36,155 nucleotides of DNA, from the NCBI GenBank assembly GCA_030609055.1, contig JAUWCZ010000010.1:1-36155 (forward strand), in the 5' to 3' direction. Source of the DNA: Chloroflexota bacterium (GTDB taxonomy: Bacteria; Chloroflexota; Anaerolineae; Anaerolineales; UBA11858). The translations under genes and the position numbers were made by a program. This document shows, piece by piece, positions 2,861 to 28,398 of this stretch; position 1 is the first letter of the stretch; every line of letters begins with the position of its first letter. The notes beneath the pieces were generated by a model. That model was not told where the DNA came from. It saw only the letters and a list, made by a program, of their open reading frames with translations, and ran no database searches.

Positions 2861-4408
2861 ATGGGCTTAGGGGATAAGATTAATCTTTATGCTTTGGACT
2901 GCGGAACGGTAAATTGGCGCCTGTACCGCATGGAATATCATTTTGAAGAGGGGATTGCTCAACATGTGACAAGTCCACTTTCCTCTCCATTATCCAATTT
3001 CACAGATCGTAAACTACCCGCTGTCATGACGTTAACCGAAGATGGTACTGGCGTGGAAGCCATCGGAGAAAAGGCGCTGGGATATTTGGAAGATAGTCAG
3101 ATCCGGAATCGGGTGCGGGAGTTCTTTAAACCTTCCATCGGGTCCCATCTTATCGAGAATCCTTCACCTCACCAGGAGCGCTACAGCCATTTTGAAGCGC
3201 TTCTATTCACGCGCTTGTTGTTAAAATCTCTCATATTCCAAATTCAAGAAGAAAAATATAATTCGGAACCATTTGATGACCAGATTCACTTTTCAATTAC
3301 CTATCCTGATCGGTGGCTTTCAGATTATGATGGAAAAATCTTTGATGATTATTACCACGTGATCCTGGAATGTTTTCCTCCGGAACTCAATGAGCGGGTC
3401 CATTTTATCCCGGAATCGGAAGGAGTGGTCCTGGGATTGCGTGATCAATCTCTTTTGGATCAATTACATGCTAAAGAAATCAACCTGATCCTTGATGTAG
3501 GGGGAAGCACTACAACGGTATATGCCAAAAAATACAATACCGAGACCGGTATCCTGGATAATATCAATCGCCATGAAGAGCCATTTGGTGGTGGATTGTA
3601 TGACGCGTTGTTGGCAAAATATCTATCCGATGAACTCCAGATCCCCCCTCAGGAATTGGCTGCAGATACTTCTGCTTTTATGGCGTTGAGAATTTGGGGA
3701 CAACTCTTAAAGGAGACCCTCAGTAGGAAAATCATTGGTGGAGAAGAAACAGTTAACGATCTCACTGAGCAGCATTCAATAACCCTGGTTATGAAGAATA
3801 ACCAGGTCTTTAGAAAAAACATAAATATTAACTTAGACGAATTTATCCAGTTGAATCTTCCCCTGGATGAAGCGTTTCAGGATGTTGTTTCCAGAGCGCT
3901 GGATACTATGGATATCGATGAGAAAGCCGTCGGAAGAGTAATTCTTCTGGGCGGGGGCGTTTTGATGCCCGGTATATTAGAAGGGATTAAAACCCGCTTT
4001 GGAACTGATAAAGTGATTTTCCCTGATCATCCGGAAGAAATTGTTGTCAGAGGAATTGGATTGGCATTCACCAGCGCATTACCAGAACAGGCAGCAGTCG
4101 AATATAAACATAAATCGAGCAAGAAGACCAGCTGGCGGATGGTTCACGAAAATGGCACAATGGTTGAAATCAATAAAGAGATAATGATCGCGGGCCGGAG
4201 CAGGGAAGCAGATATCCATTTGGATAGCAAAAAATGTTCCAGAACGCATGCCCTTATCCGGTTAGAAGGAAAGTCTCTGACTCTGCTTGATCTGAATAGT
4301 AAAAATGGCACCGTAGTAAATGATACCGAGCTCTCAGCTAATACACCTCAGTTGCTCCGGGAAGGTGATGAGATCCGATTTGGAGACCAACAATTCACCA
4401 TAGAATAG
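2861..4408 (+). CDS. Actin/Hsp70-like ATPase fused to a C-terminal FHA domain
   Basis: ALDCGTVNWRLYR (phosphate 1-like), DVGGSTTTVYA (phosphate 2-like), ILLGGGVLMPG (adenosine-like); C-terminal AGRSREADIHLDSKKCSRTHALIR…LLDLNSKNGTVVN FHA signature. Confidence 0.85.
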   Translation: MGLGDKINLYALDCGTVNWRLYRMEYHFEEGIAQHVTSPLSSPLSNFTDRKLPAVMTLTEDGTGVEAIGEKALGYLEDSQIRNRVREFFKPSIGSHLIENPSPHQERYSHFEALLFTRLLLKSLIFQIQEEKYNSEPFDDQIHFSITYPDRWLSDYDGKIFDDYYHVILECFPPELNERVHFIPESEGVVLGLRDQSLLDQLHAKEINLILDVGGSTTTVYAKKYNTETGILDNINRHEEPFGGGLYDALLAKYLSDELQIPPQELAADTSAFMALRIWGQLLKETLSRKIIGGEETVNDLTEQHSITLVMKNNQVFRKNININLDEFIQLNLPLDEAFQDVVSRALDTMDIDEKAVGRVILLGGGVLMPGILEGIKTRFGTDKVIFPDHPEEIVVRGIGLAFTSALPEQAAVEYKHKSSKKTSWRMVHENGTMVEINKEIMIAGRSREADIHLDSKKCSRTHALIRLEGKSLTLLDLNSKNGTVVNDTELSANTPQLLREGDEIRFGDQQFTIE

Positions 4409-24567: not shown

Positions 24568-25200
24568 ATGAATAATAACTCACCAGTAACTCCGTTTAAT
24601 CTGATTTCACCAAATCCTTTGTTAATTGTCATATCCGGTCCTTCCGGTGTTGGTAAGGATTCCGTGTTGGAGGAGATGAAAATCCGCGGTCTTCCTTTTC
24701 ATTTTGTGATTACAGCCACCACCCGTAAACCTCGTCCCGAGGAGGTGAATGGCGCGGATTATTTTTTCCTGTCCCAAGATGAATTCGCCAGAATGATTGA
24801 TGAAGGAGAACTCCTGGAGTATGCTGTTGTGTATCAGGATTATAAAGGCATCCCTAAATCCCAGGTAAGGGAAGCTCTGGCAAGTGGAAAAAATGTCATC
24901 ATGCGTATCGATGTTCAGGGAGCGGAAACAGTCCGGAAATTGGCTAAAGACGCGCTGTTGATTTTTTTATTACCTCAGGACGAAGAGGAATTGATCAACA
25001 GATTGAAAAAGAGAAACACTGAAACCAAAGAAAGTTTAAAATTGAGAATTGCTACCACCCGCCAGGAGTTCAAGAAGATAGATCTTTTTGATTATATTGT
25101 CGTCAACAAGGATGACCGGTTGAGCGAGACCGTTGATATGATTGAGGCTATTATCAAAGCGGAACAACACCGTGTTCACCAGCGAGAAGTAGATTTATGA
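24568..25200 (+). CDS. gmk: Guanylate kinase
   Basis: LLIVISGPSGVGKDSVLEEM…TTRKPRPEEVNGADYFFLS. Confidence 0.95.
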   Translation: MNNNSPVTPFNLISPNPLLIVISGPSGVGKDSVLEEMKIRGLPFHFVITATTRKPRPEEVNGADYFFLSQDEFARMIDEGELLEYAVVYQDYKGIPKSQVREALASGKNVIMRIDVQGAETVRKLAKDALLIFLLPQDEEELINRLKKRNTETKESLKLRIATTRQEFKKIDLFDYIVVNKDDRLSETVDMIEAIIKAEQHRVHQREVDL

Positions 25201-26228
25201 CCCATGTTTCATACTCCGTCTCTAACGAAAAGAATGGTCCGGTTCAACAGTTAATTCCTAAAATTCTCTCGGATTTCTCACGGGATTATAACCTGGATTT
25301 ATCTCAAGATCCAATTGCTATGGATCGCATACGGGAAGCAGTGGAAAAAGCCCGGCTGGAACTGGATACTGCCTACCAGACTGAGATAAACCTTCCTTAT
25401 ATTAGTGCCAATGCTTCTGGTCCTATTCATTTGATTCGGGTGGTGACCCGGGAGGATATGAACCAGCAAACCTTGGAATCGGAAGGATCAGGAGAGGGGC
25501 ATGTTAAGGCTCAACTACCCTTCCGAATTAAGTTGCCAGACCGGAAACCATTAGTTACTTACTCACTGATGGGCATTACTATAGCATTCTATTTACTGCA
25601 GCTTCTTACCCAACTATTAATGGGATTTGATCTTCCCGCCGCTTTTGGATTAAAAATTAATGAATCAATCGTAGCAGGTCAAGTATGGCGGCTGATTACG
25701 CCAATGTTTCTGCATGGGTCGATACTCCATCTTGGGTTTAATATGTATGCCCTCTTTATCCTGGGAAGGAGAGTAGAGCGCTTTTTTGGATCTTTTCGTT
25801 ACTTGGGATTGTATGTGATTGCAGGTATTACCGGGAATGTGTTCTCTTTCTTCTTTACTCCATCGCCCTCATTGGGATCATCCACAGCGATTTTTGGTAT
25901 CTTAGGAGCAGAGGCCGTCTTTATCTACCAGCACAGATACCTTTTTGGGGATCAGTCTAAGGTCGCTCTGCGACAAATTATCCAGGTTGCAGTGATCAAT
26001 CTCCTGATAGGATTGTCTCCGAGTATCGATAACTGGGGGCATATTGGCGGCCTGATCGGAGGTAGTGCTTTTTCCTGGTTCGCAGGCCCCCAATTTTTGG
26101 TTCAGGGATCACCACCGCTGCTGTACTTAGAGGATGAGCGGAAGGAAAGAACAACTGGTATCATCTTTGTCCTGCAGATGATTGTACTGATTGGGCTGGT
26201 GGTCTTGATCATCCAGACTAGATTATGA
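25197..26228 (+). CDS. Rhomboid-family intramembrane serine protease with N-terminal DnaK-like (Hsp70 NBD) fragment
   Basis: N-terminus [46 protein letters not shown] matches the DnaK subdomain IIB consensus; rhomboid motifs [33 protein letters not shown]. Confidence 0.9.
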   Translation: [343 protein letters not shown]

Positions 26229-26419: not shown

Positions 26420-27064
26420 ATGAAAGTACTGTTGTTAGAAGATGTGTATAAATTGGGCCGTGCCGGAGATATAAAGAAAGTGGCTCCCGGATATGCCCGG
26501 AATTTCCTTATGCCCCAGGGATTGGCTGTCTTGGCGACCCCGGGTGCGTATAAACAGGCACCGCGCATACAGAAAGAGGGTGAAATTAAGCGGGCTAAGG
26601 TTAATCAGGAGCTAGGTGGAGTTGCAGAACAACTGGAAGGAAAACGATTCACTTTTGCCGCCAAGGCCAGTGAGACCCGCCGTTTGTATGGTTCCATAAA
26701 TATGCAGATGATCGCTGAAGCAGTCAGTGAGGCAATCGGTGTGACCGTCGAAGCAAAACAGATCGAATCCCAGCCTTTACGCATGATTGGGAAACACGAT
26801 GTTGCCGTTCGCCTGACAGTGGATCTGATCCCCGAAATTGAAATAATTGTTCACCGGGAAGGTGAAACACCCGAATCCGCATTAGAAGAAGAACAGGAAG
26901 CAATCATGGCGGAGGAAGCCCTGGCTCAAATCCTGGATGAGGATGGTGAACAGGATGCAGGAACTGAAGACTCCGCTGATGAAAGTGAACAGGTCGCAGA
27001 AGATAATCAGGCTGATGAGAGTGCTGAAGAGGAAGTAGAAACTGAGGCAGACGAGGCAGAGTAA
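26420..27064 (+). CDS. rplI: 50S ribosomal protein L9 with acidic C-terminal extension
   Basis: [36 protein letters not shown] signature; GAAAGGG RBS. Confidence 0.95.
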
Positions 27065-27147: not shown

Positions 27148-28398
27148 ATGATGGAAACCAAACGTACAGTTGGGGAGATCCTAAAACAAACCCGTGAAGA
27201 ACAGAAACTCACATTAGATGAGATTTCTGTTATGACACGTATTAGGGTGAAGTATTTATCCGCCATTGAAGCGGATAATTATGATGTACTACCCTCCTCT
27301 GTCCAGAAAAAAGGATTCGTGCGTTCTTATGCAAGAGCTCTGGATTTAGACCCCTCCCCGTTGATAGCTCAACTGCGATTAACTATCGAGGAGGAATCGG
27401 GTGAATCCGAATATCCTGACGAGGTTTCAGTCCAGTCCTCCACAGCGGCAGAAACGCAGCCTTTGGGAGAGATTGGTGCCACATTAAAAACACAGCGTGA
27501 AAGACTGGGTTTTTCGTTGGCCAATGTGGAAAATCAGATCTTTATTCCCCAAAGGTATCTAATAGCAATTGAGAATGGCAGTCTCGAAGAATTACCTTCC
27601 ACAGTTCAGGGTAGAGGTATGGTTAAGAATTACGCTCAATTCCTGGGATTGGATCCGGAACCATTGTTATTAGGCTATGCAGATGCCCTTCAAAATCGTT
27701 TGACTGCAGTCAGAGAACGCGCTCCTGATAGCGGCATTAACTCCTTGCGTGTTTGGTTTCGCCGTTTCCTTGCCAGTCCTACAATTGTATGGGTTGGAGT
27801 AATGCTGCTGATTGGTAGTGTGTCAATCTGGTCTGGCATGCTAGTCTTCGGGAATCGGGGAGGGACTCCTGGTCTTACAGAAACCATTCCCGGGGTTGCA
27901 GATATATTACTACCATCCCTAACATTCACACCAACACCTGAGCAGCCCCAGACTACTCCTGGTGAGATTGAGGTAGATATAGCTATCTCACCGGGATCTT
28001 TAGAGACCGAACCTGTTGGGGGAGAACCAACGACGACTCCGCAGATAACCGGAAATGAAAAAGTTCAAATTCAACTGATCATCCTCCAAAGATCCTGGGT
28101 AAGAGTGACTGTCGATGGTATCACTGCCTTTGAAGGAAGGTTGTTGCCGGGAAGCGTGAAAGTCTTCGGAGGGGAGCAGAGCATTGAGATTTTAACAGGG
28201 AACGCTGGAGGAGTAGAAGTGATCTTTAATCAACGGGATTTGGGTGTGATGGGGCTCTTTGGTGAAGTTATTGATCGGGTATATACCGCGGAAGGAATTG
28301 CAACACCCACACCGACGATTACACTCACACCCACCCCAACGGATACGCCTGAAGCAACCGTTACGCCAACTCTAACAGCAACTTCTGAACCCGAGTAA
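27148..28398 (+). CDS. RodZ-like protein with two tandem N-terminal HTH_25 domains, a TM segment and a DUF4115-like domain
   Basis: EILKQTREEQKLTLDEISVMTRIRVKYLSAIE… and ATLKTQRERLGFSLANVENQIFIPQRYLIAIENG…; TM IVWVGVMLLIGSVSIW; TP-rich tail. Confidence 0.88.
   Translation: MMETKRTVGEILKQTREEQKLTLDEISVMTRIRVKYLSAIEADNYDVLPSSVQKKGFVRSYARALDLDPSPLIAQLRLTIEEESGESEYPDEVSVQSSTAAETQPLGEIGATLKTQRERLGFSLANVENQIFIPQRYLIAIENGSLEELPSTVQGRGMVKNYAQFLGLDPEPLLLGYADALQNRLTAVRERAPDSGINSLRVWFRRFLASPTIVWVGVMLLIGSVSIWSGMLVFGNRGGTPGLTETIPGVADILLPSLTFTPTPEQPQTTPGEIEVDIAISPGSLETEPVGGEPTTTPQITGNEKVQIQLIILQRSWVRVTVDGITAFEGRLLPGSVKVFGGEQSIEILTGNAGGVEVIFNQRDLGVMGLFGEVIDRVYTAEGIATPTPTITLTPTPTDTPEATVTPTLTATSEPE

Follow-up and report, generated by a model that had tools for sequence, protein, structure and literature searches.

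The functions of rhomboid intramembrane proteases are largely unknown. GlpG has a small cytosolic domain of its own, which is not derived from Hsp70. In B. subtilis YqgP, an N-terminal domain with a restriction-endonuclease-like fold binds Mn/Zn and controls cleavage, and YqgP cooperates with FtsH (PMC7231995). As a rhomboid with a folded cytosolic N-terminal domain, YqgP is the nearest functional precedent for the protein described here, although the likeness is functional only and the two are set apart by description: a restriction-endonuclease-like fold in YqgP and Hsp70 subdomain IIB in the present case.

In DnaK, subdomain IIB of the nucleotide-binding domain (NBD) is an insertion within IIA, so that its two ends are near one another and it is excisable as a unit. 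J-domains dock on the IIA/IA face of DnaK and on the linker, not on IIB. IIB is the target of all nucleotide-exchange factors (NEFs; PMC4753570). Its long β-hairpin touches the four-helix region of GrpE in solution and is present in GrpE-dependent DnaKs but shortened in HscA/Hsc70 (PMC10825016). The grip of GrpE on DnaK also involves IB and IA, so that IIB alone may bind GrpE weakly; residues E236 and Y257 are important for GrpE in M. tuberculosis. IIB also contributes to the binding site of the ClpB middle domain, which lies in the cleft between IB and IIB and in which the E. coli DnaK residues R261 and N282 are implicated.

The DNA analysed here (the window) is a stretch of 36,155 nucleotides from a Chloroflexota bacterium of the order Anaerolineales. 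It carries, on the forward strand, an open reading frame of 343 codons (25197–26228, stop included) whose start ATG shares the sequence ATGA with the stop codon of gmk, encoding guanylate kinase (24568–25200, +; PF00625, 1.7e-39). The gene for ribosomal protein L9 follows (26420–27064, +), and gmk adjoins the rhomboid gene in fusion and non-fusion relatives alike. Alignment of relatives shows a poorly conserved leader (residues 1–17; 25197–25247, +), whose opening residues (MT/MN..) resemble the start of the rhomboid in fusion-free relatives. The leader is followed by the IIB module, a low-complexity linker (residues 91–112; 25467–25532, +), recognised by species comparison and with pLDDT values mostly below 50, and a rhomboid intramembrane serine protease conserved in relatives (residues 113–343; 25533–26225, +).

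Elsewhere on the same strand are a SpoIIIAA-like AAA ATPase that carries an R3H domain at its C-terminus and a stretch resembling the Pfam model 'PTPase' PF25516 (21778–23340), a RodZ-like protein with two HTH_25 stretches (27148–28398) and a 515-residue protein (2861–4408) with a C-terminal FHA domain (1e-18). Residues 204–398 of the latter are Hsp70-NBD-like (profile positions 184–367, E 1.5e-8), and several relatives have frames of about 530–610 codons whose Hsp70 matches are similar.

Within the rhomboid part, residues 161–296 match PF01694 with an E-value of 1.5e-37 and 129.4 bits (curated cut-off 22.6). The motifs H173xxxxH178xxxN182 and GSSTAIFG, which includes S229, are present together with H282; S229 and H282 are the catalytic residues and H173, H178 and N182 belong to the oxyanion region. 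All of these remain unchanged throughout 11 aligned relatives, and from these motifs the rhomboid part is probably an active intramembrane protease. It shares the catalytic core with its Ser-His dyad and the PF01694 match with GlpG and plain prokaryotic rhomboids but matches the GlpG equivalog TIGR04239 only weakly (56.7 bits, below the curated cut-off of 250).

The N-terminal module (residues 18–90; 25248–25466, +) corresponds to E. coli DnaK 235–307. It matches the Hsp70 profile PF00012 with an E-value of 2.1e-11, above the gathering cut-off, and the NCBIfam DnaK model at 4.5e-18; against PDB sequences, the N-terminal part aligns with E. coli DnaK 235–305 at about 2e-17, in printed alignments that are free of gaps. 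Judged by these scores, the Hsp70 match is far beyond chance. The match covers only positions 229–300 of the 599 in PF00012, and the NBD phosphate loops, the linker and the substrate-binding domain of a complete Hsp70 are absent from the N-terminal domain: the DnaK-homologous stretch comprises hardly more than NBD subdomain IIB. An earlier note, made from the sequence alone, had proposed that a fragment of the DnaK/Hsp70 NBD, drawn from its GrpE-contacting part and without the rest of Hsp70, sits on the N-terminus of an intact rhomboid, and had expected Pfam to return a partial HSP70 match on the N-terminal part and a Rhomboid match on the C-terminal part. This description is borne out, and the boundaries of the module are those of subdomain IIB.

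The module consists of the elements of IIB: helix, helix and long β-hairpin. In an AlphaFold model of the module built from fusion and DnaK sequences, the mean pLDDT is 82–91 per ten-residue block over residues 21–90. Foldseek superposes this model on structures of DnaK, among them the complex with GrpE (1dkg), at 0.9–1.2 Å over 76 columns with 45% identity, in agreement with the superposition that the note had suggested as a check. A full-length model computed from six fusion sequences alone gave the same IIB elements (pLDDT mostly 69–82; its membrane part is of low confidence) and the predicted fold is therefore independent of the DnaK sequences. The hairpin (residues 59–85; 25371–25451, +; DnaK 276–302), the GrpE-contacting element of DnaK (PMC10825016), is gap-free and of full length in all six fusion species. 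The module thus resembles DnaK IIB in sequence and fold (about 1 Å over 76 columns) and in a hairpin as long as that of GrpE-dependent DnaKs, but differs from DnaK in lacking IA, IB, IIA and the substrate domain, in having lost the adenosine contacts and in being joined to a membrane protease. With 16 DnaK sequences of the same family as a reference, all six fusions have lost K270, I271 and S274 (E. coli DnaK numbering). In Hsp72, the residues that correspond to K270 and S274 make contact with the ribose and adenine of ADP (PMC9438496). The loss of these two adenosine contacts in all six proteins leads us to reject binding of a nucleotide by the module. The module is a nucleotide-free IIB that is folded according to the models.

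Fusions were found in six species of the window's genus (G000, G001, G002, G004, G005 and G007), in all cases at the same gmk locus; the five other proteins are 55–71% identical to that of the window. Three members of the genus (G003, G006 and G008) have a rhomboid with a short tail after gmk and no module, and in G009 no rhomboid was found among the matches listed. Outside the genus, in a set of 101 relatives covering 54 genera, no rhomboid match among those listed extends before residue 83; in the other genera sampled the listed rhomboids are without the module, and most relatives' rhomboids have short low-complexity tails. A search for the same architecture in related genomes, as the note had proposed, was rewarded in five other species but, among the matches listed, in none outside the genus. 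The carrier records named among public genomes are JAUWEC010000030.1, JAIORG010000051.1, JAGHAU010000121.1, DRBO01000092.1 and JANTFT010000002.1, all labelled as Anaerolineales or Chloroflexota metagenome-assembled genomes; the other loci kept in that contig scan are DnaK. When a profile of the fusion N-terminal domain was run against 400 genomes of the phylum, the matches listed besides the window were mostly DnaK-sized, with a few of 410–535 residues that were assumed to be truncated DnaK.

The distance from the gmk stop codon to the catalytic motif is 677–698 nt in carriers and 410–425 nt in the genus's non-carriers, which indicates an insertion of about 265 nt. The six carriers form one clade, with 100% bootstrap support, both in the rhomboid tree (100/97) and in the IIB tree (100/99). 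A single gain with vertical descent afterwards is most simply the origin of the fusion: a copy of IIB entered the N-terminal cytoplasmic tail of a gmk-linked rhomboid once, in one Anaerolineales lineage.

In the IIB tree the fusions stand on a long stem, nearest to Patescibacteria DnaKs but with poor support, and the AU test does not reject a DnaK of their own family as donor (p 0.44). The module may have come from nearby, since 19–23 kb downstream of gmk-rhomboid, on the same strand, lies grpE-dnaK (G007 contig 2 and G008 contig 24) or grpE, the only one of the two genes seen before the contig ends (G005 contig 11). This linkage is present in a non-carrier too (G008). Residues 34–45 of the fusion (window 25296–25331) read DLSQDPxAxxRI or nearly so, as in many bacterial DnaKs; the closest outside matches are from Patescibacteria, and same-genus DnaKs read DLREQRQALQRL or similar. 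This pattern may reflect ancestral retention or foreign origin, both of which fit the tree.

The module is translated and under purifying selection and the adjoining linker is not. Pairwise omega over IIB is 0.10–0.36 for pairs with finite dS, values that are rough for most pairs because dS is near saturation; in the closest and least saturated pair (G005–G004, dS 0.50) omega is 0.20 for IIB, 0.73 for the linker and 0.14 for the rhomboid. Linker identity between species is 0–41%, with omega near 0.7–1 at finite dS. Over the six species, 24 positions of the module are invariant, 14 of the 27 in the hairpin and 10 of the 46 in the remainder. Positions invariant in DnaK are retained at a rate of 0.65 within the hairpin, against 0.35 in the rest of the module (Mann-Whitney p 0.028), although part or even all of the hairpin's conservation may reflect the fold core.

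We tentatively propose, as a reading that is quite possible if short of probable, that the module is a membrane-tethered docking site for an NBD ligand of DnaK, most probably GrpE. Rhomboid topology places the N-terminus in the cytoplasm and therefore places the module alongside DnaK and GrpE. There, IIB would present a DnaK-like surface, devoid of ATPase activity and substrate binding, to a cytoplasmic ligand, most likely GrpE through the hairpin, with the ClpB middle domain as an alternative. The ligand, and with it DnaK-held clients or stress status, would be brought to the rhomboid active site, a coupling that can be likened to YqgP of B. subtilis, where a cytosolic domain ties a rhomboid to a signal in a protein that acts together with FtsH. 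We place GrpE first among the candidates because the element that contacts it is the most constrained and because every carrier has it (one grpE per genome in all six). A more specific version, in which the mock DnaK surface captures GrpE and intramembrane proteolysis thereby reports on chaperone load or on the capacity for nucleotide exchange, is rather unlikely as it stands. GrpE of the six carriers (L066, L057, L060, L065, L062 and L059 in G000, G001, G002, G004, G005 and G007, respectively) has nine clade-fixed positions absent elsewhere in the family, three of them C-terminal (K in ALMKEES, W and K in GYW.GDK); these differences may reflect shared ancestry or co-change. Recruitment of J-proteins, also raised in the earlier note, is rejected, as the J-domain site on the IIA/IA face and linker lies outside IIB. 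The earlier interpretation as a whole is in this way partly supported, with recruitment of GrpE and chaperone-coupled proteolysis as its candidate functions.

The main rival to docking on an NBD ligand is exaptation, in which the compact, stable IIB fold has taken on a regulatory or substrate-binding role in the cytosol, or one in self-association, with a new partner outside the Hsp70 system; we regard this as possible, though less than an even prospect. Four hairpin changes, T287S, D289N, K294I and R at 298 (fusion residues S70, N72, I77 and R81), are uniformly fixed in the six fusions and unlike the DnaK of the same organisms, which from the alignments suggests specialisation away from the DnaK interface and tells against GrpE docking. 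Nor are the GrpE-relevant positions invariant: with fusion residues mapped from phmmer coordinates, M. tuberculosis E236 corresponds to residue 47, which is A in G007, and Y257 to residue 68, which is S in G005. Exaptation is also favoured by the long stem and by the identity of only about 47% between the module and the organism's own DnaK although DnaKs of the genus are 83–92% identical to that of the window genome, and YqgP provides a case of a rhomboid N-terminal domain that senses other signals (PMC7231995). Against exaptation, many of the invariant residues are DnaK's own (among them E280, L283, P284, A288, G292, P293, H295 and R302), and both the full-length hairpin and R261 are retained.

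ClpB (Hsp100) is the second candidate ligand after GrpE and its docking would couple disaggregation to membrane proteolysis, which we think improbable. R261, one of the two residues implicated at the IB/IIB cleft, is kept in all six fusions and N282 in four, being Y or D in the two others. ClpB scores above the curated cut-off in four of the six fusion genomes and was not found above it in G000 and G005, where it may still be encoded, as these are drafts of 92–93% completeness; every carrier, by contrast, has GrpE. Equally doubtful is a passive spacer or folding aid without a partner, for which any stable tail domain would serve. The short low-complexity tails with which most relatives manage do indicate that the rhomboid tail is tolerant of change, but the low omega values over IIB, the concentration of invariant positions on one element and the conservation of polar residues (E63, N72, H78, R81 and R85) would not be expected of a mere spacer. 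That the fusion is an assembly or binning chimera, for which one could cite that all named carrier records are metagenome-assembled genomes, is ruled out for practical purposes, as the note had anticipated, by recurrence of the same join at the same locus in six species, in separate assemblies at 55–71% identity and with selection at the coding level.

The architecture is new but built from known parts: both are known separately, as are rhomboids with an accessory cytosolic domain. No report of the IIB-rhomboid architecture or of a free-standing IIB was found in the open-licence papers searched; the fusion may stand without comment in automatically labelled protein databases. We know of no other case in which evolution has produced a domain of IIB alone. 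An IIB that occurs in nature, under selection and without nucleotide, offers a direct test of the share of IIB itself in recognition by GrpE (or ClpB), and its presence and absence inside one genus provide a natural before-and-after comparison. The findings suggest a protease physically linked to the protein-folding machinery of the cell, which would connect the Hsp70 system to intramembrane proteolysis in bacteria.
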